Shown here piece by piece: positions 3,204 through 42,333 of a stretch of 64,000 bases of DNA. This DNA is from Labrenzia sp. THAF82 (GTDB taxonomy: Bacteria > Pseudomonadota > Alphaproteobacteria > Rhizobiales > Stappiaceae), in NCBI RefSeq assembly GCF_009363435.1, contig NZ_CP045354.1, positions 1,702,501 through 1,766,500 on the forward strand, written 5' to 3'. The notes under the pieces were generated by a model. That model saw only the letters and a list, made by a program, of their open reading frames with translations, was not told the DNA's origin and searched no databases. Both the position numbers and the translations under genes were made by a program. How positions within the stretch are numbered: position 1 is the first letter of the stretch; each line of letters opens with the position of its first letter.

Positions 3204-3255
3204 GATTTGAAATTGTTGGTGTAGCTTGCCTGCAATTGGAAGAGAGGTAAACGAC

Positions 3256-6493: not shown

Positions 6494-6500
6494 CACTCCA

Positions 6501-10700: not shown

Positions 10701-10756
10701 AGAACTCGTCGGCAACGACCTTAGCTTCGCACGAAAGAATTAGGACCAAACCCCTC

Positions 10757-17315: not shown

Positions 17316-18278
17316 TTAGAAGAGGTCGAGGCATTCCTGCGGAAGTGTCTCCGACAATGCTGCCAGGTTTCTTTCCAGCGATGAGACCCGTGCCGTTCCA
17401 AGCAAAACCGACGCAGCCGAGGGATGAGTGCGGGCGTAGTGAAGCGCCGCGGTCGCCAGGGGGATACCGATAGCATCCGTTTTGGCCTTCAGATCTCGCA
17501 CAGCCTGGAGGATTTCTTCGGAAGCGGGTTCATAGTCGAACCAAGCGCCTTCTTTCGGTCCGGTCGCCAGAATGCCGGAATTGAAAATTCCACCAAGAAC
17601 CAGACTAACGGATTTCTGCCGGCAGACGTCGATCAGCTTTTCCTCAGCGCCCCTGTCGAGCAACGTCAAACGGCCAGCTAGAAGGATGGCGTCAAGATCG
17701 GTGTGGCTCAGGAGATCCAGACAAATCTGCGTTTCGTTCACGCCAAGTCCGAACGACCGGATCTTGCCCTTGTCCTTGAGCTGTTGCAGGCGATCAAGGC
17801 CCGTGCCCAACAAATCCGACATGTGTTTTTCATTGTTCTGACCGTGGGTGTAGGTTCCGATGTCGTGGATATAGGCGATGTCGAGATGTCTGACCTGCAT
17901 AAGCTCAAAGCTATGTTCCAGCGAGGCTTCGATGCCGTCGCCGGAATAGTCATAGCGAACACTGTTCGGCAACGGCTCGACAAAGCCGTCTGCTTCCTTG
18001 AGCGGGGTTCCAGGCGACAACACGCGGCCGACCTTGGATGAAATCACATAGTCCTGTGGGCCGAATTGCTGCAGAAAGCGGCCAAGACGAAGTTCTGCCA
18101 ACCCGCGGCCATAATGTGGGGCCGTATCATAGTATCGGATGCCGGCTTTCCAGGCATGCTGCAATACGTCTTCTGCCTCCTGATCGGAAACGATCCTCCC
18201 GATGTTTCCGATGCCCGATGTCCCAAAGGAAAGATCGGTCACTTCGACATCGGTATTGCCTATCTTGTTAAGCTCCAT
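17316..18278 (-). CDS. Aldo/keto reductase, L-fucose dehydrogenase-like
   Basis: A 320-residue AKR. The catalytic tetrad is visible: D in YYDTAPHYG, Y in the same motif, K in SSKVGR and H in AYIHDIG. The sequence start LNKIGNTDVEVTDLSFGTSGIGN is typical of the D-threo-aldose 1-dehydrogenase (L-fucose dehydrogenase) and pyridoxal 4-dehydrogenase group. This would oxidise L-fucose or a similar pyranose to its lactone. The start is ATG 18278, overlapping the previous gene's end by 11 bases. The lactonase and mutarotase nearby fit the first steps of oxidative L-fucose breakdown. Confidence 0.75.
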   Translation of the reverse strand: MELNKIGNTDVEVTDLSFGTSGIGNIGRIVSDQEAEDVLQHAWKAGIRYYDTAPHYGRGLAELRLGRFLQQFGPQDYVISSKVGRVLSPGTPLKEADGFVEPLPNSVRYDYSGDGIEASLEHSFELMQVRHLDIAYIHDIGTYTHGQNNEKHMSDLLGTGLDRLQQLKDKGKIRSFGLGVNETQICLDLLSHTDLDAILLAGRLTLLDRGAEEKLIDVCRQKSVSLVLGGIFNSGILATGPKEGAWFDYEPASEEILQAVRDLKAKTDAIGIPLATAALHYARTHPSAASVLLGTARVSSLERNLAALSETLPQECLDLF

Positions 18279-19398
18279 GAGTGGCCGCCATTTCTTGAGT
18301 TTGTGCCAGTTTTTCAAGCCGTGGCATCTTCATCGCGGGATCTGCCCTTTGCACCCATGCAAGGAAACCGGCAACACGGCGTTGCGTTTTCTCTTCATGG
18401 TTTTGCGCGATATCCGCAAGCCTGTGATCGAGGAAGGGGTTTCGAAATCGGTCGAGCGTCGTAGCAACGTAAGCCTCTGCTTCCTGTTCGCGACCATGTG
18501 CCTTGAAGCCAGTGACGACTTCTTGCCGGTATAGGTCTTCAAGGTCTGCCAAGTCTTCCGGATCGTCCATCATATCGCGCACAAACTGCTTCGGATTGTC
18601 TTTCGACTTCAGCCAGCGCGATACAAGATAAGTGTGACCAAGGTTGAGAATGAAGAGCTTGAGCGTCTCGACTTCCTCCAGATCCTGAACAACCTTGATG
18701 CTCGGATGTTTACATGGAAGTTTCAGGCCCGGCTGGTCTTCAATCGCCCAAAGCGCATAAGGTTCTGCAACCGCACCGGCTGGCTCAAGAGGCTCTGACA
18801 CGATTCTATCGACCAGCGAATTCACCCACAGGACATTTGAGCTGAGCCAGTCCTGGAAGTCCGGAGAATATGACGCCGCAATTTCCAGAACGAGGTCTCG
18901 GAGAACTGATCCGTTTTGCGGCACGAGTTCGCAGGGCATGACCTGAAGTGGCTTACTGCCTGATCGGAAACGTTGATGAAGAAACCAGGTCAGTTTCGCA
19001 GGGTAGGACATGCCGGCTGAAAATTCCGTGTCGGTATCCTGGGACTGTCGTTTGAATCCTGCGTCGGCGGTGTTTGAGATGATGATCTCGGCATCTTCCG
19101 AAATTATCCCGGCCACGTCCTGCACATCTGCTGGCAGGCTGTAGGTCTTTCGGATGCTTTTAATCTTCTTTGCAGTGTTCACCAGAGTGCCGCCGTCGAC
19201 GCCCTTGATCAGGACGTCGTAGCCAGCAGGATCCGCCAAAGCCTTGAGGCGATTTGCCCGGGCCGCGTCGCCGCTGCTTTGAACGACCGAAATTTGTCCA
19301 AGCGCCTCGCCCCTGTCCAATGCCTCTGAAACGAAGAGATCAACATGTGCCTGCAGGAAGCGGCTGGTACCAAACTGAACAATCGGGGTTGTTGACAT
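18268..19398 (-). CDS. Mannitol dehydrogenase-family oxidoreductase (UxaB/UxuB-like)
   Basis: A 376-residue member of the polyol/uronate dehydrogenase family. It starts with QFGTSRFLQAHVDLF, the nucleotide-binding segment of this family, has the ISNTADAGF motif near residue 110, and contains a YPAKLTWFLHQRF segment where tagaturonate and fructuronate reductases have YPAKVA. The family interconverts ketose or keto-acid and polyol or hexonate with NAD. It is translated upstream of, and overlapping, the aldo/keto reductase. It lacks the long N-terminus of mannitol dehydrogenases (about 490 residues), so it is nearer the shorter tagaturonate-type. Substrate undetermined. Confidence 0.75.
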   Translation of the reverse strand: MSTTPIVQFGTSRFLQAHVDLFVSEALDRGEALGQISVVQSSGDAARANRLKALADPAGYDVLIKGVDGGTLVNTAKKIKSIRKTYSLPADVQDVAGIISEDAEIIISNTADAGFKRQSQDTDTEFSAGMSYPAKLTWFLHQRFRSGSKPLQVMPCELVPQNGSVLRDLVLEIAASYSPDFQDWLSSNVLWVNSLVDRIVSEPLEPAGAVAEPYALWAIEDQPGLKLPCKHPSIKVVQDLEEVETLKLFILNLGHTYLVSRWLKSKDNPKQFVRDMMDDPEDLADLEDLYRQEVVTGFKAHGREQEAEAYVATTLDRFRNPFLDHRLADIAQNHEEKTQRRVAGFLAWVQRADPAMKMPRLEKLAQTQEMAATHGA

Positions 19399-19418
19399 GA
19401 CGCCTCCTGTGTCGTTAT

Positions 19419-19429
19419 TTGTTTTTTAT
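19419..19429. promoter_or_regulatory. Second TTGTTTTTTAT motif in a divergent promoter
   Basis: TTGTTTTTTAT recurs exactly here, between the divergent polyol dehydrogenase (minus) and lactonase (plus) genes, matching 16335-16345. It is probably part of a shared GntR site or an UP element. Confidence 0.4.
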
Positions 19430-19490
19430 AATTAAGAACACTTGCCCGTCAACATGTTTCAACTTCCTGGGGCGGGTAAAGGGAGTGGCC

Positions 19491-20339
19491 ATGGTTGTCG
19501 ATGCTCATCAGCATTTCTGGAAAATTGCGCGCGGTGACTATTTCTGGATGGACGACAGCGTTGCCACGATCCGGCGCGACATACTGCCTGAAGATCTGAT
19601 GCCGCATGCCAAGGCTTGCGGCATTGAGGCAACCATTGCTGTTCAGGCCGCGCCCACTGTCGCTGAAACGGATTTTCTGCTGGAACTCGCCGAAGAGAAT
19701 TCATTGATCAGGGGCGTGGTCGGTTGGGTCGACCTTGAAAGCGGCCTGGCCGCAAAGGACCTGAAAAGACTGTCGGCCAATCCGCTTTTCAAAGGCGTGA
19801 GGCCAATGCTGCAGGATATTGCGGCTACGGACTGGGTTCTGCAGGCAAGTGTTCTGTCGAACCTTTCAATTGCTGCGGACCTTGGACTGTCGTTTGATGC
19901 GCTGGTCCAGCCCAGGCACTTGCAGGCGATCGACGGTCTTGCCCGGGCCGTTCCGGATCTGAAGATAGTGATCGACCATTGTGCCAAGCCCGTCATCTCA
20001 GGCGGTGCAGATGCGGGAGACGCGTGGCGCTGCGACATGGCGCATCTGGCCAGTCACGAACAGATCCATTGCAAGGTTTCAGGCCTTGCCAACGAGTATG
20101 GCACAGGCTGGGCAGCAAAAACCCTGCAGCCGGTTGTCGATCATGTCGTTACTGAGTTCGGAGCAGACAGGATCATGTGGGGCAGCGATTGGCCTGTTCT
20201 GGAATTGGAAGGAAGCTACACTGACTGGTTCGGCTGCGCGCAATCCATGATGCAGCAGCTTTCAGATCAGGAACGTAATGCGGTATTCGGCGAAACGGCG
20301 TCACGGTTTTACAGGATCAATGATCCCGGAAGTCATTAA
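19491..20339 (+). CDS. Amidohydrolase-2 family lactonase (L-fuconolactonase-like)
   Basis: A 282-residue TIM-barrel hydrolase of the amidohydrolase_2 family. Metal or catalytic residues are visible: HxH in DAHQHFW, H in VIDHCAKP and D in WGSDWPV. Members hydrolyse L-fucono-, L-rhamnono- and galactaro-lactones. The sequence after the start (VVDAHQHFWKIARGDYFWMD) is characteristic of the fuconolactonase group. ATG 19491 is used; earlier in-frame codons lie in the promoter region. It pairs with the mutarotase immediately downstream and probably opens the lactone made by the aldo/keto reductase. Confidence 0.78.
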   Translation: MVVDAHQHFWKIARGDYFWMDDSVATIRRDILPEDLMPHAKACGIEATIAVQAAPTVAETDFLLELAEENSLIRGVVGWVDLESGLAAKDLKRLSANPLFKGVRPMLQDIAATDWVLQASVLSNLSIAADLGLSFDALVQPRHLQAIDGLARAVPDLKIVIDHCAKPVISGGADAGDAWRCDMAHLASHEQIHCKVSGLANEYGTGWAAKTLQPVVDHVVTEFGADRIMWGSDWPVLELEGSYTDWFGCAQSMMQQLSDQERNAVFGETASRFYRINDPGSH

Positions 20340-20751: not shown

Positions 20752-21504
20752 TCAGTAGGTCGCGCGGCCGCCGGAAAGGTCATAGACCGCGCCGGTCGAA
20801 TAGGAACACTCCTCCGAAGCCAACCAACTCACGAGGCTGGAGATTTCTTTCACTGTTCCCATGCGACCCATCGGTATTTTGGCAAGCATGTAATTGATCT
20901 GTTCTTCGGTCACGTCGGCGAGCATCTCCGTCTCAATGACGGCTGGCGCAACCACATTGACCGTGATGCCCTCGCGAGCCAGCTCCTTGCCGAGACTTTT
21001 GGTGAGAGTGATTACCGCACCCTTGGAGACTGAATAGGCAGACGCATTCGGATTACCGTCTTTGCCGGCCATGGATGCAATGTTCACGATACGGCCATAG
21101 CCGTTGTTCTGCATGTGTGGAACAACGGCTTTGCAGGTGTGGAAGATGCCGTTGAGGTTTACCTGCATCACCTGGTTCCAGATATCCAGCGGATAATCGG
21201 CAAGGGACGTGTTTACCCCGGCAATACCGGCCGAGTTAATCAGAATGTCGATCTGGCCACAGCGTTGTTTTACACGCTCTGCCGCTGCCTTGACCGCGGT
21301 GAAGTCAGCAACGTTCACACTGTCGGAATGAACGTCCCCGAATTGGCTCAGTTTCTGTCGTGCGTCTAACAGGGCGGTTTCATTGAGGTCCCAGAGTGTC
21401 ACGCTGGCACCTGACTTCAGAAATCGTTCGGCGACGGCAAATCCCATGCCTCTGGCGGCGCCGGTCACAATCGCAACGCGGCCATCAAGATTGTATGTGT
21501 TCAT
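20752..21504 (-). CDS. Short-chain dehydrogenase/reductase
   Basis: A 250-residue classical SDR. The cofactor motif is TGAARGMGFA, with D in LWDLNE indicating NAD preference. The catalytic Ser is in NIASMAGKDG and the YxxxK motif is AYSVSKG. The tail SGGRATY is short. It lies last in a minus-strand operon with the neighbouring SDR and the MalFGK-type importer, so it probably acts on a sugar or its acid. The sequence does not fix the substrate. Confidence 0.8.
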   Translation of the reverse strand: MNTYNLDGRVAIVTGAARGMGFAVAERFLKSGASVTLWDLNETALLDARQKLSQFGDVHSDSVNVADFTAVKAAAERVKQRCGQIDILINSAGIAGVNTSLADYPLDIWNQVMQVNLNGIFHTCKAVVPHMQNNGYGRIVNIASMAGKDGNPNASAYSVSKGAVITLTKSLGKELAREGITVNVVAPAVIETEMLADVTEEQINYMLAKIPMGRMGTVKEISSLVSWLASEECSYSTGAVYDLSGGRATY

Positions 21505-21528: not shown

Positions 21529-22293
21529 TCAGAGCCAACCGCCGTCAAGCGTAAATTCCTGACCAGTGCACATTTTGCTGTCGTCTGCTGAGAGGAACAT
21601 CACGAGTGAAGCAACATCTTCTTCGGTGATCCTGCCGGCCATTGGTTGGTTCTGTTTGAGGATTTCATCGACGTCTTCGCTGTAATGTTCAGCCAGTTGG
21701 CGGGCCGTCAGCACCATGCCCGGCAAAACGGTATTGACGCGGACGCCGCTGGTTCCGAATTCACGGATAAAGGACCTGGTCAATCCATGGATGGCAGCCT
21801 TGGCCGTGGTATAGGCCGGCATTCCGCCGTGCTTGGCCTTCCAGGCTATCGATCCGAAATTGACAATTGCTCCCTTTTTCCTGCGGATCATGTCTGCCGC
21901 AACCGATTGGATTGCGAAAAATGTCGGGCGGAGATTGACCGCCATTGCCCGGTCCCAGTCATCGACGGTGACGTCCCGCCAGTCGTGTCTTGTATCGTTG
22001 GCTACGTTGTTCACCAGGATGTCCAACGGTGCCGAGGTGCCCTTGTAGGTGGTGATTGCAGCCTGCAATGCGTGGATGTCACAGACATCAACAGCTTGAA
22101 ACCAGACGGAGGCACCGGCATCGCGCAGGCTCTGGCAGAGCTCATTGCCCGCATCTGCATTGATGTCGACGAACCCAACTTTCGCACCCTGAGCTGCGTA
22201 GGCCTTGACGAGCGCAGCACCGATCCCCGTGGCCCCCCCTGTGACAAAGGCGTTCATACCGGCGAGGCTCGGGTAGGTGGCAAAGGTCGACAT
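21529..22293 (-). CDS. Short-chain dehydrogenase, aldose 1-dehydrogenase-like
   Basis: A 254-residue SDR with NAD motif TGGATGIGAA, then Asp in GFVDINAD, catalytic Ser in NFGSIAWKAKHGGM, YxxxK in AYTTAKAAIHG and the C-terminal TLDGGWL. The GSIAWKxKxGGMPxY pattern is that of bacterial D-galactose, D-xylose and L-arabinose 1-dehydrogenases. It could therefore make the aldonolactone from the imported aldose. It ends three bases after the preceding importer ATPase gene, so the operon is contiguous. Confidence 0.78.
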   Translation of the reverse strand: MSTFATYPSLAGMNAFVTGGATGIGAALVKAYAAQGAKVGFVDINADAGNELCQSLRDAGASVWFQAVDVCDIHALQAAITTYKGTSAPLDILVNNVANDTRHDWRDVTVDDWDRAMAVNLRPTFFAIQSVAADMIRRKKGAIVNFGSIAWKAKHGGMPAYTTAKAAIHGLTRSFIREFGTSGVRVNTVLPGMVLTARQLAEHYSEDVDEILKQNQPMAGRITEEDVASLVMFLSADDSKMCTGQEFTLDGGWL

Positions 22294-22296: not shown

Positions 22297-23406
22297 TTAG
22301 ATCCTTGGAATGCGAGCTGTTGATTCCGGATCAAAAAAGCAGACATGTTCGAGATCGAGAAGCAAATTGATCTCTTCATCCTCGGCAGGGCGGAAATTGG
22401 CAGGCAGAACGGCAACCAGGGACAGATCTGCCACCTGAAACACCAACATCGTGTCAGGGCCCGTCGGCTCCACCACTTCGACGCGGGCCGTAATCGGAAC
22501 AAGAGTACCTTCCTGTTTGCCGTCCAGAACGAAATGTTCTGGGCGTGCGCCAATGGTCACTTTGCCACCTACATAGGGCAGCAGTTCTTCGTGACGTGTG
22601 CCAAGTGGAACAACCAGCTCCGCACCATTTGATCGATAGACAAGCCGAATATCGTTCTGGCTGCCTTCGACGTCCACATCGATGAAATTCATGGATGGCG
22701 ATCCCATGAAGCCGGCGACAAACTTGTTCGCGGGTTCCCTGTAAATCGTGTCCGGATCCGCGAACTGCTGCACGACACCGCCGCTCATAACCACGATCCT
22801 GTCAGACAGTGTCATTGCCTCGATCTGATCATGCGTGACGTAGACGATGGTCTGGCCAAGTCTCTTGTGAAGCTTCTTGATCTCGGTGCGCATCTCCACG
22901 CGCAATTTGGCGTCGAGATTTGACAATGGTTCATCAAAGAGAAACAGCTGCGGATCGCGTACGAGAGCCCGTCCCATGGCAACACGCTGTCGTTGACCAC
23001 CGGAAAGTTGCGATGGTTTGCGGTCCAGCAGCGGCTCGATTTGGAGAAGACGAGCTACGTCAGCGACGGCCTTCTTCTGTTCATCCTTGGGTACACGCCT
23101 GTTTTCCATTCCGAAGGTGATGTTTTCGCGAACGGTCATGGTCGGATAGAGGGCATAGGACTGAAACACCATGGCGATGTTCCGGTCTTTCGCCGATAGA
23201 TCGGTGACGTCTCTTTCACCCAAGGTCAGTGTGCCGTAGGAGGTTTCCTCCAAACCGGCAATGATGGACAACAGCGTGGACTTGCCGCAGCCGGACGGAC
23301 CCACAAGCACCACGAACTCGCCGTCCTTGATGTCGAGGTTGATGTCCCGGAGCGCCAGAAACTCGCCGTATTTTTTCCAGGTACTGTCGATTGTGAGACG
23401 CGCCAT
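22297..23406 (-). CDS. MalK/UgpC-type ABC transporter ATP-binding protein
   Basis: A 369-residue sugar-importer ATPase. Walker A is GPSGCGKST, the signature is LSGGQRQRVAMGRALVRDP, Walker B is LFLFDEPLSNLDAKLR, and the C-terminal TOBE-type regulatory domain starts near residue 240 (GSPSMNFIDVDV). The real start is ATG 23406, which overlaps the stop of the upstream permease by one base; an open frame that extends to 24078 is a shadow in the permease gene. It serves the two permeases and the binding protein at 25314. Confidence 0.88.
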   Translation of the reverse strand: MARLTIDSTWKKYGEFLALRDINLDIKDGEFVVLVGPSGCGKSTLLSIIAGLEETSYGTLTLGERDVTDLSAKDRNIAMVFQSYALYPTMTVRENITFGMENRRVPKDEQKKAVADVARLLQIEPLLDRKPSQLSGGQRQRVAMGRALVRDPQLFLFDEPLSNLDAKLRVEMRTEIKKLHKRLGQTIVYVTHDQIEAMTLSDRIVVMSGGVVQQFADPDTIYREPANKFVAGFMGSPSMNFIDVDVEGSQNDIRLVYRSNGAELVVPLGTRHEELLPYVGGKVTIGARPEHFVLDGKQEGTLVPITARVEVVEPTGPDTMLVFQVADLSLVAVLPANFRPAEDEEINLLLDLEHVCFFDPESTARIPRI

Positions 23407-24305
23407 TATTTGACTGCTCCCTGCGTAAGGCCGCGAACGAAATATCGCCCGCCGAAGAAGTAGATGAGGAGAGGCGGTATTGCCGCGATCAGGACCGCAG
23501 CGGACCCGAAGCCATATTCGCTGACACCGGTGTCGTCCGCATTCAATGACATCAGCGCGGCCGTGATCGGCCTGAAATCCGAAGAGCTGAACGTGACCGC
23601 GAAGAGGAACTCGTTCCAGATGAAGGTGAATTGCCAGATGATCGTCACGATGATGATCGGCGGTGACAGGGGCACCACAATTTTCCAGAAGGTTCTGAAG
23701 AAACCGGCTCCGTCGATGCGGGCGGCCTTGATCAGATCGTCTGGAAGATTGACCAGATAATTCCGGCAAAAGAGGGTCGTGAAGCACGTTCCCTGAATGA
23801 TGTGAACCAGCGCCAGACCGGCCAGCGATTTCGATAATCCGAGCCAGGAGAGGGCAATCGCCCAGGGCAGCAGAACCACCTGGGGCGGCAGAAAAACCCC
23901 GATGGTGATGGCGACGAAGACAACGCTGGCAAAAGGCATTTTCCATTTTGTGAGCGCGAAGCCGTTCACCAGACCGATTGCCGTGGAGATGAGCGTTGCG
24001 GGGACGACCATGAGCATCGACGCGATGAAATAGGGCTTCACGCCTGTACAGCTTGCGTTGATACAGGCCGAGCTCCACGCAACGTCCCAGTTTTCAAGGG
24101 TGATCCTGGTGGGCCAGCCGATGAAACTTTCCCGCAGGATATCGGCATTGAAGCGCAGCGAATTCAGAAGGATCACCGCGAGCGGCATGATGGTGAACAG
24201 GCCAACCACGATCAGGATCGAATAGACCGCGACCCGCGTTGCAAACCTGCGTGGATTGAACGGCTTCTTCCGATTGAAATCGGGCAGGGTGTCTATGTCA
24301 GGCAT
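23406..24305 (-). CDS. MalG-type sugar ABC transporter permease
   Basis: A 299-residue permease with six predicted helices and the EAA loop DLIKAARIDGAGFFRTFWKIVVPLSPP. The N-terminus is short (VAVYSILIVVGLFTIMPLAVILLNSLR). ATG 24305 is chosen; it overlaps the preceding gene by eight bases. It partners the MalF-type permease and the UgpC-type ATPase. Confidence 0.87.
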   Translation of the reverse strand: MPDIDTLPDFNRKKPFNPRRFATRVAVYSILIVVGLFTIMPLAVILLNSLRFNADILRESFIGWPTRITLENWDVAWSSACINASCTGVKPYFIASMLMVVPATLISTAIGLVNGFALTKWKMPFASVVFVAITIGVFLPPQVVLLPWAIALSWLGLSKSLAGLALVHIIQGTCFTTLFCRNYLVNLPDDLIKAARIDGAGFFRTFWKIVVPLSPPIIIVTIIWQFTFIWNEFLFAVTFSSSDFRPITAALMSLNADDTGVSEYGFGSAAVLIAAIPPLLIYFFGGRYFVRGLTQGAVK

Positions 24306-25239
24306 GGCCGCCTCCGTTCTTTTGTTTGCGCAGCACCCAGCCAAGGGCAATGACCGGAAGCAGCACGACAGTCAGGCCGATCAGAAGCCAGACGGCCGCC
24401 GCCGCGCCTTGCGCAAGCTCCCCGGCGGCAAACAGGCGGTCATAAACAAAGATCGCAGGAAAGGTGGTCGAGATACCCGGACCGCCGTGGGTGAGCGCCA
24501 GGACCAGGTCGAATGTCTTGATCGCGAATTGCAGGAGAATGATCAGGACAGAAATGATGACCGGCCAAATGGATGGCAGGATGATCCGGCGGTAGATCTT
24601 GAACATGCCAGCGCCATCGATCCGACCTGCCTTGACCACATCATGATCAACCCCGCGCAGGGCGGCCAGAACCATCACCATCACAAATCCGGACGCATGC
24701 CAGACCGCGGCGATGACCACGGCATAGAGCGCCGTTTCGCGGCTTGTGATCAGACTGAATTCGAAGCTCGTCCAGCCAAGGTCATGGAAGAATTTTTCCA
24801 GACCGGTGGACGGGTTCAAGATCCATTGCCAGGTGGTTCCGGTCACAACAAAGGAAATTGCGATCGGATAGAGGAATATGGATCGAAGGAAGTTTTCGCC
24901 CTTGATACGCTGGTCCATCAGGACAGCAAGGACAACGCCGACCAGGAGGGACAACACAATGTAGAGCGCGCCGAAAATTGCCAGGTTGTTGACGCCGGTC
25001 GTCCAGCGCGGGTTGCGCCAAAGCCTTGTGTAGGCATCAAAACCTGCGAAGTCATAAACCGGCAGCAAGGTCGAACTGGACAGCGACAAGTAGATGTTCC
25101 AGCAGACAAACACAAATATGTAGATGCCAGTGGTGATAAGGGTCGGGAGCAGAACCAGGGTTGGCACGAGCTGCGCCATGCGAGCTGCGCGGCTGACCGA
25201 GCGGGTTCTGAATTCCGGCATTTGTGCAACAGATTGCAT
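24298..25239 (-). CDS. MalF-type sugar ABC transporter permease
   Basis: A 313-residue permease (starting MQSVAQMPEF) with a hydrophobic first helix (LVPTLVLLPTLITTGIYIFVFVCWNIYLSL) and EAA loop HDVVKAGRIDGAGMFKIYRRIILPS. A longer reading frame from TTG 25287 is open, but it would be translated from inside the 25272-25300 hairpin. The ATG at 25239 (or 25221) is therefore more likely, although no strong ribosome site is seen. It should pair with the MalG-type subunit. Confidence 0.83.
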   Translation of the reverse strand: MQSVAQMPEFRTRSVSRAARMAQLVPTLVLLPTLITTGIYIFVFVCWNIYLSLSSSTLLPVYDFAGFDAYTRLWRNPRWTTGVNNLAIFGALYIVLSLLVGVVLAVLMDQRIKGENFLRSIFLYPIAISFVVTGTTWQWILNPSTGLEKFFHDLGWTSFEFSLITSRETALYAVVIAAVWHASGFVMVMVLAALRGVDHDVVKAGRIDGAGMFKIYRRIILPSIWPVIISVLIILLQFAIKTFDLVLALTHGGPGISTTFPAIFVYDRLFAAGELAQGAAAAVWLLIGLTVVLLPVIALGWVLRKQKNGGGHA

Positions 25240-25271
25240 GGCTTGCCCGAGTGGTTTTGTGCCGATGAAGG

Positions 25272-25300
25272 AGGAAGGAGCCTGCAACAGGCCCCTTCCT
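25272..25300. repeat. Long hairpin downstream of the sugar-binding-protein gene
   Basis: GGAAGGAGCCTG (25273-25284) pairs with CAGGCCCCTTCC (25288-25299) across a three-base loop. The one A-C mismatch on the plus strand becomes a G-U pair in the minus-strand transcript, so the stem fits RNA made from the operon. It lies between the binding-protein and MalF-type genes. Confidence 0.65.
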
Positions 25301-25313: not shown

Positions 25314-26588
25314 TCAGTATTCGTTGATCACGGCTTCCGCCATTTTCTGTGCGGCATCTTCAGAGCTCATGTCACTTGTGATGAACTCGGAAATGACCGT
25401 GAACATGGCTTTGCGGAACTTCTCAGGCACTGCCATGTTGTGTGCCATTGAGCGCACCACGGTTCCAGCTTCCGCTGCGTTTTTCAGATCAACCAGATTG
25501 AGCTGTTGGCACGGGTTGAATTCGTCACCCAACTCGACATCCATGCGAGCCGGAATGGAACCCTTGGCCACATTGAAGACCTTCTGAAAGTCCGGGGACA
25601 TGATGAGCGAGGCCATCATTTTCTGTCCTTCGATGAACTCCGGGTCACTCTGCTTGAAGAAGACGACTGAATCGGAATTCAGGATGTAGCCGGGTTCGCC
25701 GCTGTTCATCGGTGCGCCGGCGCACAGATAATCCTTGCCGTATTCATAACCGGCGGCGTTCATGGTTCCGATGGCCCAGTCGCCGTGGAAATAGAAACCG
25801 GCTTCACCCTTTGCCATCATGTTGAGCGGCTCTTCCCAACCACGGCCAGGGAAAGCCGGGTCCATCCAGCCGACCATCTTGCGAAGCTGGTCGAAGGCGG
25901 CGACCATTTCCGGACTGTTAAGTGCTTCCAGGTCGAGTTCGATGAACGCCTTTCTGAAAAGGTCGGTGCTGATGCCCTGAACCACGATTTCAAACAGGGT
26001 TCCGTCAATCCAGTCCTGACCGCCATGGGCGACGGGTACAATGCCCTTTTCAGCCATCCGTTCGGCCAGGACGTTGAACTCATCCCAAGTCTTTGGCAGC
26101 TCTTCTGCGCCGATCGCATCCATTGCGGATTTGGATGCCCACATCCAATCGATACGGTGGATGTTCATGGGCGATGCAACCCAAGTGCCGTGCGGTTTCA
26201 TGACGCTGACGAGTTCAGGGGCAACAACAGTTTCCCAGTTTTCTTCTTCGGCGAGCGCATTGAGATCAGCTGTCAGACCTGTCTTCGCCCATTCGCCGAT
26301 TTCAGGACCTTTGAGCTGAACCGCAGATGGGGGATTGCCGGAAATCACGTCGGCGCGCAAACGGGCAATCGTGTTGGACGTGTGACCGGGGATGGCTGTC
26401 TGCTTCCAGGAGCCGCCTTTTTCCTCAAACATGGTCCCAAGCACATTGATTGCCTCGGCATTCGAACCCGAATGCCACTGGTGAAGCAGGTTGGTTTTGG
26501 GTTCGGCGTGTGCACCACCGGCAATTGCCAATGTCGTAACTGCAGCTGCGGCCACCGTTACCATCAATTTCTTATGCAAGTTCGTCAT
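25314..26588 (-). CDS. Sugar ABC transporter substrate-binding protein (family 1)
   Basis: A 424-residue extracellular solute-binding protein. A signal peptide covers about residues 1-28 (ending near GAHAE) and the mature sequence begins LLHQWHSGSNAEAINVL, the usual strand-helix start of this family. GEAGFYFHGDWAIGTM is the conserved hinge segment. The start is ATG 26588, after GAGGAGGAAG. Two LacI-type palindromes precede the gene (26640-26673), so this promoter drives the importer. Confidence 0.87.
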   Translation of the reverse strand: MTNLHKKLMVTVAAAAVTTLAIAGGAHAEPKTNLLHQWHSGSNAEAINVLGTMFEEKGGSWKQTAIPGHTSNTIARLRADVISGNPPSAVQLKGPEIGEWAKTGLTADLNALAEEENWETVVAPELVSVMKPHGTWVASPMNIHRIDWMWASKSAMDAIGAEELPKTWDEFNVLAERMAEKGIVPVAHGGQDWIDGTLFEIVVQGISTDLFRKAFIELDLEALNSPEMVAAFDQLRKMVGWMDPAFPGRGWEEPLNMMAKGEAGFYFHGDWAIGTMNAAGYEYGKDYLCAGAPMNSGEPGYILNSDSVVFFKQSDPEFIEGQKMMASLIMSPDFQKVFNVAKGSIPARMDVELGDEFNPCQQLNLVDLKNAAEAGTVVRSMAHNMAVPEKFRKAMFTVISEFITSDMSSEDAAQKMAEAVINEY

Positions 26589-26639
26589 CGGTTCTTCCTC
26601 CTCGATCATGACGCTTTTTGGATATGCAGGCTGTCATTA

Positions 26640-26712: not shown

Positions 26713-27453
26713 TTAAATCGTTATGCCTCCATCAATGTTGATTGCCTGTCCTGTAACGAAAGCACTTTCATCCGACGCCAGATAAGCGCAGAGCGATGCT
26801 ACTTCGCCCACTTGGCCAAATCGGCCAGATGGCTGCCGACTGGTGAAGAACTTTTCAGCTGCCTCTCGGCCGCCGAGTTCCTCGGCAAGGTCTTCGATGC
26901 GTTGGCGAAGACTTGGACTGTCTACCGTTCCCGGGCAAACAGAATTACACCTGATCCGGTCTTTCAGATAGTCCGCCGCAACAGCTTTGGTCAGGCCGAT
27001 TACGCCGCCCTTTGCCGCGCCATAAGCTGCTCGTCTGGGAAAGCCTTTGACCGAGCTTGCCACCGAACCGATGGTAATGATGCTGCCGCCGGAAGCCTTC
27101 ATTTTAGGGATCGCAGCCCGCAGAACGCGATAGGCGCTGCTAAGAGTTATGTCGGTGGACCGCAGCCACTCGGTCTCATCGCATTCTTCAATCGTTCCCT
27201 GGTGCACATAGCCAACGCAGTGAACGAGAACGTCAACGCGTTCAAAGTTTCCGAAATAGTCGTCAATGGCAGCCTGATCGGTGGCATCGAGCTGACCGGT
27301 TGTTACACCGGCCAGTCCGTCAAAGAGCGTTTCATTGAGATCGCTGGCAAAGACCACGGCACCTTCATCACGCAGGCGTTCTGCAACGGCCCGGCCGATA
27401 CCCTGGCCTGCTGCAGTTACAATCGCGGTTTTTCCCTTCAGTCTCTCCGACAC
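26713..27453 (-). CDS. Short-chain dehydrogenase, 2-keto-3-deoxy-acid dehydrogenase-like
   Basis: A 246-residue SDR resembling 2-keto-3-deoxy-L-fuconate 4-dehydrogenase (the BDH2-like group). The NAD site is TAAGQGIGRA with D in ASDLNE. The catalytic Ser is in GSVASSVKGFPRRAAYG, and YGAAKGG follows. A conserved VDSPSLRQRI segment sits after CNSVCPGT. This step oxidises the 2-keto-3-deoxy acid to the 2,4-diketo acid cleaved by the adjacent FAH-family hydrolase. The gene ends 12 bases after that hydrolase gene, in the same operon. Confidence 0.8.
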   Translation of the reverse strand: MSERLKGKTAIVTAAGQGIGRAVAERLRDEGAVVFASDLNETLFDGLAGVTTGQLDATDQAAIDDYFGNFERVDVLVHCVGYVHQGTIEECDETEWLRSTDITLSSAYRVLRAAIPKMKASGGSIITIGSVASSVKGFPRRAAYGAAKGGVIGLTKAVAADYLKDRIRCNSVCPGTVDSPSLRQRIEDLAEELGGREAAEKFFTSRQPSGRFGQVGEVASLCAYLASDESAFVTGQAINIDGGITI

Positions 27454-27464: not shown

Positions 27465-28307
27465 TCAGATCTTCTGAACAGTCTGTTCCTGGCTTCCCAG
27501 CCCCTGGATGCCAAGTGAGACCCTGTCACCAACTTTTAGCCAGACCGGAGGCTTCATGCCAGCGCCGACGCCTGGAGGTGTGCCGGTGCAAATCAGATCA
27601 CCCGGTTCCAGTCGCAGAAACTCACTCAGGTAACTTACAATGGTCGCCGGATCAAAAATCATGGTGTCGGTGTTGCCGTTCTGCATTCGCTGACCGTTGA
27701 CGTCCAGCCACATCGGCAGGGATTTTGCGTCATCCAATTCGTCTCCGGTGACAATCCACGGGCCTGTCGGACAGAAGTTGGGAAAGCTCTTTCCCTTGGC
27801 CCATTGCCCACCGCGTTCCAGCTGCCAGGACCGCTCAGACACATCGTTGACGAGTGTGTATCCGAGAATATGCTCCAGCGCTTCATCCTTGGAAATATTG
27901 AAGGCCTGCTTGCCGATCACGATGCCAAGCTCAACTTCCCAATCCAGCTTGGTCATCTTGTCGGAATAAAGAATGGGATCAAAAGGCGCGCAATATGTTC
28001 CGGACGCCTTGTTGAAGAGGATCGGTTCATCGGGGATCGGCATGCCGGCCTCTTTGGCATGATCACTGTAATTGAGGCCAATGCAGTAGATGTTGCGCGG
28101 TTGACTGACGGGAGACCCCACACGGACACCTGCCTGATCGACTTCCGGCAAACTAGCAGGATCGACACCGGCAACAGCCGCGGTCAGACCGGCAATGGTT
28201 TCAGGCGTAATGTCTGACACCAGAGAAGAAATGTCGCGCGCCGTACCGCTCTCGTCCAAAAGGCAGGGAATTTCCTGACCGGCTGCCCCAAGTCTCAAAA
28301 ACTTCAT
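27465..28307 (-). CDS. FAH-family 2,4-diketo-3-deoxy-acid hydrolase
   Basis: A 280-residue fumarylacetoacetate hydrolase-family protein. Metal ligands are in DWEVELGIVIG and GYTLVNDVSERS; CIGLNYSDHAKEAG is the usual substrate-lid segment. A hydrolase of this kind cleaves 2,4-diketo-3-deoxy-L-fuconate to pyruvate and L-lactate. With the neighbouring SDR it forms the last two steps of the non-phosphorylated deoxyhexose route. Other 2,4-diketo acids are possible. Confidence 0.8.
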   Translation of the reverse strand: MKFLRLGAAGQEIPCLLDESGTARDISSLVSDITPETIAGLTAAVAGVDPASLPEVDQAGVRVGSPVSQPRNIYCIGLNYSDHAKEAGMPIPDEPILFNKASGTYCAPFDPILYSDKMTKLDWEVELGIVIGKQAFNISKDEALEHILGYTLVNDVSERSWQLERGGQWAKGKSFPNFCPTGPWIVTGDELDDAKSLPMWLDVNGQRMQNGNTDTMIFDPATIVSYLSEFLRLEPGDLICTGTPPGVGAGMKPPVWLKVGDRVSLGIQGLGSQEQTVQKI

Positions 28308-28317: not shown

Positions 28318-29616
28318 TTAGTGTTTTTTGCCCCACCAGGTGCCTTTCAAAGCGCTCCCGGCAGCAAAAGTCCCGCTGCCCAGTTGCTCCTGGATACGCA
28401 GGCATTCATTCCACTTTACCATCCGTTCCGAGCGGGTGAAGGAACCAACCTTCAATTGTCCGCACCCAAGACCCGTCGCCAGATGGCTGATGGAAACATC
28501 TTCAGTTTCACCGGATCGCGCAGAAACAATTGCCCCCCAGTCTGATTTTTTTGCCGCAGCAAAGGCGTCCACTGCTTCGCTGACGGTTCCTGCCTGATTG
28601 ACCTTGATCAGAACAGCGTTGCAAGCACGATCTGCATTTGCGGCTTCCACCAGTTTGGCGTTGGTCACCAGATAATCATCGCCAATGATCTGAACCCGTT
28701 CGCCAAACCGCTTGGTGAATTCTATCATTCCGTCAGTGTCGTCCTCTCCAACCGGGTCCTCGATCGAGACAATTGGATATGTGTCGATCCAGTTTCCAAG
28801 CAGGTCAATCAGCTCGGCACTGTCCATTGCCTTGTCTTCGAGCGCAAGCCGGTATTTTCCGTTTTGGCCGAATTCGGATGCGGCGATGTCCAGCGAGATT
28901 GCGACCCGTGCGCCGGGTTTCTCACCTGCTTTTTCGATGGCTTTAACGAGAGTTTCCAAGGCTTCTTCATTGCTGTCGAAAACCGGCCACCAGCCGCCCT
29001 CGTCGGCAACTCCGGCCAACCGGCCTTTCGAGGCCATGATGTCTCCGGCTGCGAAATAGACTTCATTCGTGATTTCAAGCACCTCGTCGAAGCTCTGAGC
29101 GCCCGGGACCATGATCATAAAGTCTTGAATGTCGACCCTGCGTCCGGCATGTGCACCGCCTCCGAAAATCTGGATTTCGGGCAGGGGAATGGACGGGGTT
29201 TGGTCATAAAGATCCGCAACATGACGCCAGAGCGGTTTCTTCGCACTTGCAGCGCCCGCGTGAAGGACGGCGAGCGAAGTGGCGACCATCGCATTGCCGC
29301 CGAGCGTTTCCTTGATGGGCGAGGGATCCAGCTCAAGCAGACGATCATCCACGGCACTCTGATTGTTCGCGCTCAAACCCACAAGTTCCGGAGCAATCGT
29401 CTTGTTGATGCTCTCCAGGGCCTGAGCAACATCCATACCGCGCAAATTGCTTCCTCCGTCGCGCAAATCAACGGCTTCGCGGGTGCCTCGGCTTGCTCCC
29501 GCCGGAGCGATTGCCCTGCCAAGGCTTCCATCTTCAAGGATAACGTCGACTTCTAGCGTCGGATTGCCACGGGAGTCCCAGACCCGCCGTCCTCTGACTG
29601 ATGTGATCGCGGTCAA
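28318..29616 (-). CDS. Divergent enolase paralogue
   Basis: A 432-residue protein of true enolase length and order, starting ITSVRGRRVWDSRGNPTLEV. The catalytic or metal residues kept are: E in DEGG, D in SLDIAASEF, E in SIEDP, D in GDDY, K in IKVNQ, R-S in ARSGET and K in LKVGSF. Positions that differ from enolase are: SHRSGET is SARSGET (His to Ala), GAST is GASR, NGGxHA is GGGAHA, and QEFMI is QDFMI. The metal and phosphate-binding parts survive while lid and proton-relay positions changed, so it may act on a different phosphorylated acid. It overlaps the kinase gene by four bases and lies between catabolic genes, so it is unlikely to be the housekeeping enolase. Confidence 0.75.
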   Translation of the reverse strand: MTAITSVRGRRVWDSRGNPTLEVDVILEDGSLGRAIAPAGASRGTREAVDLRDGGSNLRGMDVAQALESINKTIAPELVGLSANNQSAVDDRLLELDPSPIKETLGGNAMVATSLAVLHAGAASAKKPLWRHVADLYDQTPSIPLPEIQIFGGGAHAGRRVDIQDFMIMVPGAQSFDEVLEITNEVYFAAGDIMASKGRLAGVADEGGWWPVFDSNEEALETLVKAIEKAGEKPGARVAISLDIAASEFGQNGKYRLALEDKAMDSAELIDLLGNWIDTYPIVSIEDPVGEDDTDGMIEFTKRFGERVQIIGDDYLVTNAKLVEAANADRACNAVLIKVNQAGTVSEAVDAFAAAKKSDWGAIVSARSGETEDVSISHLATGLGCGQLKVGSFTRSERMVKWNECLRIQEQLGSGTFAAGSALKGTWWGKKH

Positions 29617-30632
29617 CGGCTGTTACCCTTCCATGTTTGTGCAAATGTCTCGGCGATCTCGCCGATTTTTGTTTTTGGCTTTTTCAGCAATGCGATCGAT
29701 GCCTCTCTGATTGTCAAACGAGAGCTCTCGTCCAGATATTCGACCGGCGACTTGCCGTCGATGCGGGCAAGCATCAGGGCTGGCAGAAGCTCTGCTGTTC
29801 GGCGTTCGATCCGTTCTGGTGTTTCCCAACTGACATGGGCCGCGTAGGCACTCCAAAACTCTTCAAGGTCGGCTGCGAGAGCCGGACGAAGCGTCGGCAC
29901 GTGCTGTGCTTTCAAGATCAGATGGTTCAGGCAAAAGGCAACGTCGAATTCAGGCGCACCCATAGTGGCGCATTCTGCATCGAGCACGACTGGCTGCTTT
30001 CCCTTGAACAAGATGTTCTTAGGGCTGACGTCCCCGTGGACGAGCACTGTTTCAGTCTCATAGAGGCGGCTTGCCAACGCAGTCAGCTGCTCTGCAACTT
30101 CGGGCTTCTTCTTTGCGGTGAAGACAAGATAGGGCTCGATGCGGAGCGCATAAAAGTCATCACGGTTTTGGAAGGGCGCAGTTTCGAAGCCTGGACGGGT
30201 CGAGGCTGCATGGATGCTTCCGAGCAGGTTGCCGACCAGGTTTGCACGAGATGGGATACGCCGGCCTTCGAGCAAATCCGATTTCCAGAGGAATACGTCG
30301 TCTCCGGCAAGGAATTCCATTGCGAAGCCGTGGTTTTCTTCCGACCTGCCGAAGACTTTGACAGCGCTTTCCGGAGCAATATCGGCCGCCACTCTCAACC
30401 ATTCGAATTCAGCTTTGTTTCTGTGGACTGGTGCTTTCCAATCCTCAGCGACTTTCAGTTTCGGAAGGGCGAATTTGATGCACAAGCGTTGGCCTTCAAC
30501 TTCGACCATCGCGATATCTGAAGCGACGCCACCGGTGAGCGGACGAACAACACTGATCGCCGCCGGATCAGCCAGTCCAAGCTCGTCAATCAGTTCTTCG
30601 CACCTTTTCCTGAGCGCGGTCGGCATTTTCAC
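29613..30632 (-). CDS. APH/choline-kinase-family phosphotransferase
   Basis: A 339-residue kinase-like protein. The catalytic loop is HGDVSPKN (HGDxxxxN) and the following magnesium-binding Asp is in VLDAECA, the equivalent of DFG. The N-terminal nucleotide-binding lobe has an ATP-binding Lys in RLCIKFALPK. The fold is that of aminoglycoside, homoserine and sugar small-molecule kinases. GTG 30632 or ATG 30626 could be the start. It is coupled to the enolase paralogue downstream, so its product may be the substrate of that protein. Substrate unknown. Confidence 0.72.
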   Translation of the reverse strand: MKMPTALRKRCEELIDELGLADPAAISVVRPLTGGVASDIAMVEVEGQRLCIKFALPKLKVAEDWKAPVHRNKAEFEWLRVAADIAPESAVKVFGRSEENHGFAMEFLAGDDVFLWKSDLLEGRRIPSRANLVGNLLGSIHAASTRPGFETAPFQNRDDFYALRIEPYLVFTAKKKPEVAEQLTALASRLYETETVLVHGDVSPKNILFKGKQPVVLDAECATMGAPEFDVAFCLNHLILKAQHVPTLRPALAADLEEFWSAYAAHVSWETPERIERRTAELLPALMLARIDGKSPVEYLDESSRLTIREASIALLKKPKTKIGEIAETFAQTWKGNSR

Positions 30633-30656: not shown

Positions 30657-30672
30657 ATGTTCACGTGAACAT
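30657..30672. promoter_or_regulatory. Perfect LacI-type operator in the divergent promoter
   Basis: ATGTTCACGTGAACAT is a perfect 16-base palindrome in the 107-base gap between the kinase (minus) and the LacI gene (plus). It shares the GTTCACGTGAAC core with 26640-26651. It probably allows both autoregulation and control of the catabolic operon. Confidence 0.82.
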
Positions 30673-30739: not shown

Positions 30740-31738
30740 TTGGCGGCTCGGGTAACGATCAAAACCATCGCAAAGGACCTCGGGATCTCGCATATGACCG
30801 TTTCCCGGGCGCTCTCCGATCATCCGAATGTCCAGAAAGACACTCGGGAACTCGTGAAAAAAAGGGCGGCTGAACTCGGCTATGTCAAGATCGCCGCTGC
30901 GACAGCCATGCGAGGCGACGGTACTCGGATTGTCGGGCTGCTTCTGCCCAACATTGTCAACGAGTTTTATGCCAGTTTCGCCAATGAACTTGCCCGAATC
31001 TGTGAAGCTTTTTCCTATCAGCTGATCATTCATCTGACAGACGACGACTTGAAAACAGAGCACAAGGCAATGCAGCAATTGCGCGAAGTTCAGGCAAAGG
31101 CCGTTGTTGTCGTGCCGGCCCCTGGAGACCCTCACCTTATGGGTGGAGATCGGCATCATCTTGACGGGCTCGACGTGATTCAACTGATCCGCCAACGCTC
31201 CGTGACCGGACGTGAAGCTGCGATCCTGGTGGATGATGCCGGAGCGATCTCAGCCGCAGTCAAACACCTTCACGCAACGGGTCATAGGAAAATAGCCTAT
31301 ATCGGCGCGAATTCTGATCTGTCCTCTGGTCGCAACCGTCTGGAAGCCTATCGCAAGGGACTTCGTGAGAGCGGACTTTCCGAAATTCATGAACTGATCA
31401 AGACTGCACCGCCATCATTTTCCATGGGAGGAAATTCTGCAGAAGCTCTTTTGTCGGAAGGTGTTGCAACGGCGATAGTCTGCGGCGGGTTTGAAATCTC
31501 AAATGGGGCTCTGCACGCTCTTTTGACATCGGGCCGCAAACCCGGTTCCGACATCGCCTTCATCGGATATGGCGACCCGTCTTTCTATACTTGGATTGAA
31601 GGTGGGATCTCGACGATCCGCGTCCCGGTTTCACCTCTTGCAAACCAGACACTTCAGGTTTTGAAGTCGGGTACCGCCGACGATGAAAATGCTCAGATAT
31701 TCGAATTTCAGGCCGAACTCGTGATCAGAAAATCCTGA
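30740..31738 (+). CDS. LacI-family transcriptional regulator
   Basis: A 332-residue repressor. The N-terminal helix-turn-helix reads TIKTIAKDLGISHMTVSRALSDHPNV and is followed by the hinge RAAELGYVK. The rest is a periplasmic-binding-protein-like effector domain with IGYGDPSFYTWIEGGISTIRVP near the end. The start is TTG 30740 after GGAGAG. Three matching palindromes upstream of its own gene, the kinase operon and the binding-protein operon make it the likely controller of the whole 20752-30632 regulon. The inducer should be a sugar or its acid. Confidence 0.85.
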   Translation: MAARVTIKTIAKDLGISHMTVSRALSDHPNVQKDTRELVKKRAAELGYVKIAAATAMRGDGTRIVGLLLPNIVNEFYASFANELARICEAFSYQLIIHLTDDDLKTEHKAMQQLREVQAKAVVVVPAPGDPHLMGGDRHHLDGLDVIQLIRQRSVTGREAAILVDDAGAISAAVKHLHATGHRKIAYIGANSDLSSGRNRLEAYRKGLRESGLSEIHELIKTAPPSFSMGGNSAEALLSEGVATAIVCGGFEISNGALHALLTSGRKPGSDIAFIGYGDPSFYTWIEGGISTIRVPVSPLANQTLQVLKSGTADDENAQIFEFQAELVIRKS

Positions 31739-35777: not shown

Positions 35778-35828
35778 AAAGTCGTCACTCCTAAAGATGG
35801 CCGGCGAACCGGCCATCCAGCCGGCAAA

Positions 35829-37010: not shown

Positions 37011-37022
37011 GGGCAGGGCTCC

Positions 37023-37313
37023 TTACCAGCGCTTTGTTTTGCAGTTGTGGGTGTGGACATGTCCGCCCTTTTCGATATCGGCAATGATCTTGCCGATGTC
37101 CTCGCCGTATTTGACAGCCGTGTCTCCGTCTTTCAGATCTTTCAGTGCGATCTTGTGTCCGATGGGCACATCAGCGCCCGCGGTCAGTCGGAATGTAGAG
37201 TTGTCGTGGGTGACGCAGCACAGCATATCGGTACCGGCCGTCAGTCCTTCCACGACGACCACACCGACATTGTCGGCATGTTCATGGACAAGAAGATGGG
37301 GGATTTCAGACAT
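37023..37313 (-). CDS. suyA: (R)-Sulfolactate sulfo-lyase, small subunit
   Basis: A 96-residue SAF-domain protein, the length of the separate N-terminal half of UxaA-type dehydratases. It begins HLLVHEHADNVGVVVVEGLTAG and includes IGHKIALKDLKDGD and GEDIGK, the typical SAF beta-clip. The start is ATG 37313 with TAAGGAGA ahead; the ribosome site overlaps the stop of the upstream gene. It partners with SuyB. Confidence 0.86.
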   Translation of the reverse strand: MSEIPHLLVHEHADNVGVVVVEGLTAGTDMLCCVTHDNSTFRLTAGADVPIGHKIALKDLKDGDTAVKYGEDIGKIIADIEKGGHVHTHNCKTKRW

Positions 37314-37323
37314 GAATGTCTCC

Positions 37324-39068: not shown

Positions 39069-39072
39069 GCGA

Positions 39073-40386: not shown

Positions 40387-40394
40387 TTCAGACC

Positions 40395-41726: not shown

Positions 41727-41737
41727 AGGTGCCTCCC

Positions 41738-42253: not shown

Positions 42254-42273
42254 GGGCACTCCTCTACCGTTCA

Positions 42274-42293: not shown

Positions 42294-42333
42294 CGGTGGT
42301 TGTGCGGGAAAGGCTTTATTGAACAGAAAACAG

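Follow-up and report, generated by a model that had tools for sequence, protein, structure and literature searches.

A kinase-linked enolase paralogue in a sugar operon of Labrenzia sp. THAF82 and its candidate route to phosphoenolpyruvate

Why should an operon for sugar breakdown begin with a kinase and an enolase? The question is raised by a 64,000-nucleotide stretch of the 6.4 Mb single-contig genome of Labrenzia sp. THAF82 (NZ_CP045354.1, here contig C1, positions 1,702,501 to 1,766,500; the whole stretch is called the window), in which a kinase of 339 aa (KIN) and an enolase-like protein of 432 aa with a TTG start (ENO2) stand at the head of a minus-strand operon. FAH1, SDR_C, a four-gene ATP-binding cassette (ABC) transporter for sugars and two further SDRs follow, and a LacI-family gene is divergent from KIN (Table 1). 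The two genes overlap by four bases, as the initial annotation of this locus had reported; these are TTGA, formed by the kinase stop codon TGA and the enolase start codon TTG. Enolase is among the most conserved enzymes of biology, and here two of its residues, fixed in 49 others examined, are replaced alongside one kinase.

Residue signature of ENO2 and its coupling to KIN

Aligned with and numbered after Escherichia coli K-12 enolase, ENO2 retains S42, H159, Q167, E209, D246, E290, D317, K342, R371, S372 and K393, among which we take D246, E290 and D317 to be the metal ligands, K342 and E209 the acid-base pair and R371-S372 the phosphate site. Seven changes were found, T43R, N155G, E168D, G207A, G292P, H370A and T394V, so that Asp and Ala occupy the positions of Glu168 and His370 by which a glycolytic enolase was recognized. 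The kept metal, Lys, Glu and Arg-Ser residues and the changes at positions 370, 168, 155 and 43 had all been listed by the initial annotation and were confirmed by the alignment; those at 207, 292 and 394 are additional. ENO2 shares with enolase (EC 4.2.1.11) the fold, the three metal ligands, the acid-base pair, H159, the phosphate site and K393, but differs from it at positions 155, 168, 207, 292, 370 and 394, in its link to a kinase and in being an extra gene beside a second enolase match.

Family scores agree with an enolase: 147 bits against Pfam Enolase_N, about 297-298 bits against Enolase_C and 460 bits against NCBIfam TIGR01060 (cut-off 300). Against MR_MLE_C (cut-off 29.4 bits) ENO2 reached 28.8 bits in one scan and 30.1 in another, far under its Enolase_C score, which is expected as normal for a superfamily relative. 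The AF2 model of ENO2 (pLDDT 89.9) matches E. coli enolase chains with TM scores of 0.91-0.95, and that of KIN (pLDDT 91.8) has 5-methylthioribose kinases (MTRK) as its closest solved folds (query TM 0.75-0.83); as far as predicted models go, these matches confirm the two folds, and they carry nothing on substrate. KIN is like MTRK in its closest solved fold and sequence and in its APH catalytic motifs, which are conserved across 30 aligned sequences, but unlike it in an identity of only 16-18%, in scoring 58.8 bits against the curated MTRK model (cut-off 275) and in having a near-invariant motif of its own, L288-A-R-x-D-G-K-S-P-x-x-Y299.

ENO2 is not the sole enolase of its genome, since a genome search of the kind proposed by the initial annotation found a second one at C1:3521638-3522486 (L001), which carries E168/H370 and scores 440 bits against Enolase_C versus 298 for ENO2. 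Enolases of the D168/A370 type are annotated 'phosphopyruvate hydratase' in plasmid records, and because ENO2 lies above the TIGR01060 cut-off and is annotated as a glycolytic enolase, genome-based flux models may count this type as glycolysis.

The pair recurs widely, as a search of other genomes, also suggested at the outset, revealed. The kinase was found in 27 of 297 genomes of the host's order. Among 398 proteobacterial genomes it occurs in 10 and the D168/A370 enolase type in 9, all 9 having both; the exception, G598 (L118), has a truncated kinase and lacks the enolase type. In the 9 carriers the enolase-type matches are 53-100% identical and the next best 47%; each has two enolase matches, the second, where listed (five genomes), being 43-45% identical. 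Within the host family the enolase type is present in 6 of 87 genomes, each with a second enolase match of 43-44%. A contig scan with one sequence as query returned 2 loci, and an alignment query would reach further.

For the layout of the pair 55 loci were compared, one gene (L073/L121) being counted twice. Kinase and enolase are adjacent on the same strand in 47, mostly overlapping or abutting, and lie 2.7-7.8 kb apart in five (L040, L041, L059, L068 and L071); L062 holds a degenerate pair on opposite strands, and the enolase is not shown in two, L056 (kinase at the contig end) and L118. This recurrence rejects the idea of a one-genome oddity.

The active-site signature follows the kinase. 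A table of 115 rows with repeats comprised 65 D168/A370 enolases, 49 E168/H370 enolases and one D/Gly (L062); reduced by 14 rows (12 repeats and two genuine additional D/A rows), it held 51, 49 and one, respectively. D168/A370 is thus present in 51 of 52 kinase-linked enolases, the exception being the degenerate L062, and E168/H370 in 49 of 49 enolases that have no adjoining kinase. These 49 are the enolases whose loci the searches returned, not every enolase of those genomes, and in all of them the flanking DNA retrieved, up to about 1.5 kb, lacks the kinase. The kinase is present at 63 of the 65 D/A rows; for the other two (L147 and L148), which are cut short from G023 and G187, it is 7.8 and 4.5 kb away. 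ENO2 shares 42-48% identity with the E168/H370 enolases and 39-100% with those of the D168/A370 type. The latter were seen in alpha- and beta-proteobacteria, Bacteroidota (Persicobacter), Actinomycetota (Rhodococcus, Embleya) and haloarchaea (Haladaptatus, Halomarina). In a tree of 50 rows, 32 D/A rows are set apart by a branch with SH-aLRT 100; its 18 canonical rows were all proteobacterial, with archaeal and actinobacterial housekeeping enolases outside the tree. Kinase and enolase distances are congruent (Mantel r 0.77, n=50; maximum of 2000 permutations 0.37).

Together these data support a real, conserved family, in which the enolase paralogue is a dedicated enzyme tied to a kinase and not a duplicate for glycolysis. 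As L062 is the only row that fails to keep its catalytic, metal and phosphate residues, descent into a decayed duplicate was rejected. Ordinary 2-phosphoglycerate can be processed by any cell; that the kinase hardly ever occurs without the D168/A370 enolase suggests that its product is another compound. A search of the open-access literature found no description of the kinase-enolase pair or of L-2-phosphoglycerate dehydration. Carboxyphosphonoenolpyruvate synthase of phosphinothricin biosynthesis is also an enolase paralogue with a new phospho-substrate, a precedent named by the initial annotation.

The replaced residues bear on the chemistry. According to the available text of PMC10619443, Glu163 and Glu204 of Mycobacterium tuberculosis enolase act via water at the terminal carbon of phosphoenolpyruvate (PEP), and its Ala mutants except S42A, Glu163 included, were non-functional in the direction from PEP to 2-phosphoglycerate. 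Glu163 is taken as the counterpart of E168, where the change in ENO2 is to Asp and that in the mutant was to Ala. Because E168 and H370 are uniformly replaced while other catalytic residues are kept, we suggest that the ENO2 group eliminates from a 2-phospho acid with an altered C3 side or stereochemistry.

The L062 locus (8202-10927, on an Enterobacter chuandaensis plasmid) encodes a remote kinase and an enolase-like protein annotated as hypothetical, in which D168/G370 is accompanied by Lys in place of E209. Its surroundings resemble a biosynthetic cluster, with an aminotransferase, a nucleotidyltransferase, iron-containing redox enzymes and an MFS protein.

A candidate route to phosphoenolpyruvate

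From the observed coupling of the two proteins, their residue signature, distribution and neighbours, we infer the following reactions. A sugar 1-dehydrogenase would act first and a dehydratase second (the MR/MLE gene of the neighbouring operon, or one encoded elsewhere), SDR_C would serve as 4-dehydrogenase, and FAH1 would cleave a 2,4-diketo-3-deoxy acid into pyruvate and a C3 hydroxy acid, which KIN and then ENO2 would convert to PEP. KIN would phosphorylate the 2-hydroxyl of a small 2,3-dihydroxy acid, and ENO2, its pocket for the leaving group rebuilt by E168D and H370A, would eliminate at C2-C3 to give PEP or a close enol phosphate. A 2-phospho acid made by the kinase and an elimination by the enolase are the natural reading of the signature split, the co-occurrence and the congruent distances, and to that extent the kinase-then-enolase scheme of the initial annotation is plausible. 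That the two enzymes form a module acting last, on the C3 acid from FAH1 cleavage, and deliver PEP, is the reading we tentatively prefer.

Within this reading L-glycerate, via L-2-phosphoglycerate, is the leading substrate, possible rather than probable, because SDR_C is of the L-2-keto-3-deoxyfuconate type and D-glycerate has a kinase-family gene and an enolase in the genome. MOFRL is the family of known D-glycerate 2-kinases, and with a MOFRL-family gene at C1:1050566 D-glycerate is probably covered. To our knowledge no known enolase uses L-2-phosphoglycerate or a 3-substituted 2-phosphoglycerate, and such an entry to PEP is missing from known pathways. It is conceivable, though rather doubtful, that one of these compounds is turned into PEP by a second, widespread enolase chemistry hidden under the name phosphopyruvate hydratase; if so, carbon would enter central metabolism at PEP by a route absent from known pathways.

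The sugar type was approached through FAH1 and SDR_C. The closest solved chain of FAH1 is an L-2,4-diketo-3-deoxyrhamnonate hydrolase (8gsr, E 9e-84), and with 354 bits it misses the curated NF053535 model (cut-off 500); judged from its sequence, FAH1 is of the same kind as the 2,4-diketo-3-deoxy-sugar-acid hydrolases, probably with another substrate. SDR_C is closest to human DHRS6/BDH2 (2ag5) and L-2-keto-3-deoxyfuconate 4-dehydrogenase (8xwk/8y11), where, according to the available text of PMC11199699, the R148/T183/R192/R214 set binds the carboxylate and Trp252 packs on the 6-methyl group. All 11 complete SDR_C copies keep the R148/T183/R192/R214 pattern, and all 11 have Ile at the position of Trp252, a Trp that is seen in 2ag5 and was placed in 8xwk by numbering. 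The characterized dehydrogenase accepts L-2-keto-3-deoxygalactonate at about one fifth of its efficiency with the 6-deoxy compound (1480 vs 7900 per min per mM), and D-2-keto-3-deoxygluconate at 75 per min per mM (PMC11199699). In the same chemistry 6-deoxy sugars yield pyruvate and lactate, and pentoses yield pyruvate and glycolate (PMC11199699, PMC6336799); by analogy, a hexose would yield pyruvate and glycerate, which would be L-glycerate in the case of an L-galactose-like sugar. The Ile in all 11 copies, together with the acceptance of L-2-keto-3-deoxygalactonate, argues for a hexose over a 6-deoxyhexose. The operon is accordingly like Route III of L-fucose and L-rhamnose breakdown in having homologues of its dehydrogenase and hydrolase, SDR_C with the carboxylate-binding Arg set and FAH1, but unlike it in the Ile and in the addition of KIN and ENO2, which go unmentioned in the available text of PMC11199699 and PMC6336799.

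The neighbours of the pair point to its position in the route. Up to 7 kb from it, FAH genes occur in 20 of the 55 loci, D-2-hydroxyacid dehydrogenases in 13, SDR_C in 12, dehydratases in 7, VOC dioxygenase-like genes in 6, GFO/IDH/MocA genes in 4 and PEP carboxylase in 3, compared with 0 FAH, 0 D-2-hydroxyacid dehydrogenase, 1 SDR_C and 4 dehydratases in 344 kb of flanking DNA. Another 20 loci, some of them short contigs, are without any tested pathway family in this range. In Rhizobium indicum (L059) PEP carboxylase, D-2-hydroxyacid dehydrogenase and kinase follow each other on one strand; ABC transporter genes with a Peripla_BP_6 binding protein directly precede the pair in L036, and a LacI gene alone precedes it in L120. 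Such neighbourhoods would suit a self-contained route that starts at a small hydroxy acid and ends in PEP, and do not decide between its D and L forms.

Dehydratases of three superfamilies are found in sister clusters. An ILVD/EDD dehydratase shares clusters with FAH1/SDR genes in L035 (in the operon) and in L112 continuing into L134, a UxuA-like protein stands with FAH/SDR in L069 and is fragmented in L066, and MR/MLE enzymes are present in the FAH/SDR clusters of L113 and L031; Paracoccus seriniphilus has an araD dehydratase and an MR/MLE gene about 30 kb away. In the window the KIN-ENO2 operon itself has no acid-sugar dehydratase, as the initial annotation had stated, with the caveat that a dehydratase-like MR/MLE gene lies in a neighbouring operon that also encodes an oligopeptide-type ABC transporter and a sulfatase. 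This MR/MLE operon stands beside KIN-ENO2 in Roseibium aggregatum (L057), G713 and G715 too. We place the pair after FAH cleavage because FAH and D-2-hydroxyacid dehydrogenase genes are nearby, because sister clusters carry these dehydratases, and because a self-contained PEP route fits both the 20 loci without pathway families and the PEP carboxylase near three.

Several points weigh against this reading. A distance of 24 kb separates the MR/MLE gene from ENO2, and a pattern search of the window found no site near it resembling the palindrome that lies between KIN and LacI. With the queries used, the surroundings of the pair gave no dehydratase in L074, nor did about 30 kb around it in G711. 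D-sugars, which would lead to D-glycerate, also suit galactonate-type MR/MLE, UxuA-like and L-arabinonate-type dehydratases, and the D-2-hydroxyacid dehydrogenases of 13 loci would yield D-hydroxy acids, which speaks against a substrate restricted to the L form. Ile at the Trp252 position is still hydrophobic, so that a different C6 group is only suggested. At lid position 43 the 12 sugar-type rows compared have Arg, and 9 of 13 dehydrogenase-linked rows have Thr; this variation suggests that substrates may differ among clades. Lastly, the neighbour enrichment is overstated and serves as description only, because the queries had been taken from the very loci compared and the background, the flanks of the same islands, is non-random.

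Alternative reactions for the pair

The scheme of the initial annotation, spelled out, has the pair replace a sugar-acid dehydratase: KIN would phosphorylate an aldonate at O2, ENO2 would remove the 3-OH, and the enol phosphate would be dephosphorylated to feed the SDR and FAH steps. Both E168D and H370A would remove bulk beside C3 and make space for a C4 substituent, a variable lid residue suits variable chain lengths, and D-2-hydroxyacid dehydrogenases could yield a 2-hydroxy acid from a 2-keto acid; that the window's operon has no dehydratase, and that none was found with the queries used in L074 or near the G711 cluster, also speaks for it. Yet dehydratases accompany the same FAH/SDR genes in L035, L112/L134, L069, L066, L113, L031 and the window region, no phosphatase or pyruvate-kinase-like gene that could free an enol phosphate was seen in the window's operon, and neither the 20 pairs without tested pathway genes nor the PEP carboxylase neighbours accord with it. 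We consider this substitution unlikely and do not favour it; the two-enzyme biochemistry of the initial annotation is plausible, and its placement in the pathway is probably wrong.

Also improbable is that an ordinary D-glycerate 2-kinase is paired with a pathway-specific enolase isozyme, converting D-glycerate via D-2-phosphoglycerate to PEP, with the odd residues as tolerated drift. Glycerate is the expected FAH product of a hexose, the D-2-hydroxyacid dehydrogenase, aminotransferase and PEP carboxylase neighbours resemble a serine-cycle-like set, and all rows except L062 retain the metal, Lys, Glu and phosphate residues. A MOFRL-type D-glycerate 2-kinase with the housekeeping enolase would achieve the same overall conversion if D-glycerate were the substrate, but its kinase family differs from that of KIN, and both genes are already in the genome. 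Normal 2-phosphoglycerate needs no private enolase, yet the kinase is accompanied by one in 9 of 10 genomes and 53 of 55 loci, and drift would not give one D/A pair across Proteobacteria, Bacteroidota, Actinomycetota and haloarchaea while sparing all 49 others.

Very unlikely is a third alternative, in which ENO2 would form PEP from a 3-substituted 2-phospho-propionate (e.g. from a sulfonated or sulfated C6) by expelling sulfite, sulfate or another group: the pocket changes would lie on the leaving-group side of the fold, Arg43 is joined by Arg46 in the 12 sugar-type rows compared, a sulfatase operon stands beside the pair, a cluster resembling dihydroxypropanesulfonate (DHPS)/sulfolactate breakdown adjoins it in the window, L073 and Paracoccus seriniphilus, and SDR_B matches a sulfoquinovose 1-dehydrogenase (9gwu) among solved structures, but 9gwu is only the third of three listed, the sulfolactate-like cluster has its own sulfo-lyase-like gene, Arg43 is missing from other clades, and no such sulfur genes were noticed in the annotated soil and archaeal neighbourhoods, where they were not searched for.

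The predicted operator, further features and neighbouring clusters

A perfect 16-bp palindrome between KIN and LacI, ATGTTCACGTGAACAT, is likely the LacI operator, as predicted from its sequence and position. Weaker copies with 3 mismatches lie at 26638 and 26658, 5' of the ABC binding-protein gene, and matches with up to 3 mismatches number 3 in the window versus 0.25 expected. Sites with 0-2 mismatches were found upstream of KIN in 11 other loci (L032, L057, L058, L066, L073, L074, L112, L113, L119, L120 and L122) and not found there in L031, L035 and L069; copies also precede a tripartite tricarboxylate transporter in R. aggregatum (L057) and Paracoccus seriniphilus (L058). The sole other match in the whole genome with up to 2 mismatches, at C1:4793663, falls in a coding frame, upstream of an ILVD/EDD gene, and was rejected as chance, because a reversed control pattern also matched once.

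Table 1. Features of the window discussed in the text (window coordinates; cut-offs and scores in bits).
Feature	Coordinates	Strand	Basis
KIN, APH-fold small-molecule kinase	29613..30632	-	ORF listing; Pfam APH 62.6 bits; catalytic HGD201-SPKN206, D218-x-E220
ENO2, enolase paralogue with D168/A370 (E. coli numbering)	28318..29616	-	ORF listing; Pfam Enolase_N/Enolase_C
FAH1, 2,4-diketo-3-deoxy-sugar-acid hydrolase-like	27465..28307	-	closest solved chain 8gsr; NF053535 below cut-off
SDR_C, L-2-keto-3-deoxyfuconate 4-dehydrogenase-like	26713..27453	-	closest solved chains 2ag5, 8xwk/8y11
ABC sugar-binding protein	25314..26609	-	ORF; family F18, also in L035, L057, L058, L073, L112, L119
ABC permease 1	24298..25287	-	ORF; gene order conserved
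ABC permease 2	23406..24305	-	start set within slightly longer ORF; gene order conserved
ABC ATPase (UgpC-like)	22297..23406	-	start set within longer ORF; homologue annotated ugpC in L057/L058
SDR_B, sugar 1-dehydrogenase-like	21529..22293	-	D-xylose 1-dehydrogenase model 286 bits, cut-off 400
SDR_A, further operon SDR	20752..21504	-	ORF listing
Palindrome ATGTTCACGTGAACAT	30657..30672		perfect, 16 bp, between KIN and LacI
LacI-family regulator	30740..31738	+	Pfam LacI, Peripla_BP_3; family F8 in 9 other loci
MR/MLE enzyme, galactonate/mannonate dehydratase subgroup	3226..4476	+	Pfam MR_MLE_C; PRK14017 258 bits, cut-off 311
Sulfatase of MR/MLE operon	10586..12301	+	arylsulfatase and choline-sulfatase models, below cut-offs; homologues in L057, L122, L129
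Aldo/keto reductase, tagaturonate-reductase-like and L-fucono-1,5-lactonase-like genes	17316..20339		fuconolactonase NF052480 204 bits, cut-off 400

The genes at 17316-20339 were refound only in G715 among the compared stretches; they are associated with KIN-ENO2, and a shared pathway is putative. On the other side, LacI is adjoined by a weakly scoring FAH-superfamily protein of 384 aa (FAH2, 31966-33120), which also occurs in G715 (L073/L121) and gave no match among NCBIfam models.

The operon at 736-12301 encodes a GMC oxidoreductase, the MR/MLE enzyme, the oligopeptide-type ABC transporter and the sulfatase, and looks like one for uptake and breakdown of a sulfated compound; its MR/MLE enzyme, binding protein and sulfatase recur adjoining KIN-ENO2 in three other Roseibium-type genomes.

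Further afield, a Rhizobium sp. RCAM05350 plasmid (L066:10001-16000) has kinase, enolase and UxuA-like genes broken into several frames and apparently carries the sugar cluster in a decaying form. In two haloarchaeal loci (L063 and L064), with sugar-type clusters, the pair adjoins a ketol-acid-reductoisomerase-like gene (annotated ilvC), cupins and several MR/MLE genes. A non-sugar set is seen in L040, L041, L059, L061, L065, L068 and L071, a catabolic module whose members vary by locus: VOC extradiol-dioxygenase-like protein, Zn-alcohol dehydrogenase, cupin, FAH and D-2-hydroxyacid dehydrogenase, with a LacI gene in several loci.

The window also holds, at 33698-42361, a cluster of a HisD-like (HpsN-type) protein (39073-40386), an SDR, a Zn-alcohol dehydrogenase, a UxaA/SuyB-like protein (35829-37010), an Ldh-like dehydrogenase, a YeiH-type exporter and a TRAP transporter. 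The cluster looks like one for DHPS/sulfolactate breakdown, its gene names being those of the DHPS pathway as judged from the translations. Both L073 and Paracoccus seriniphilus (L143) have a counterpart adjoining their kinase-enolase operon.

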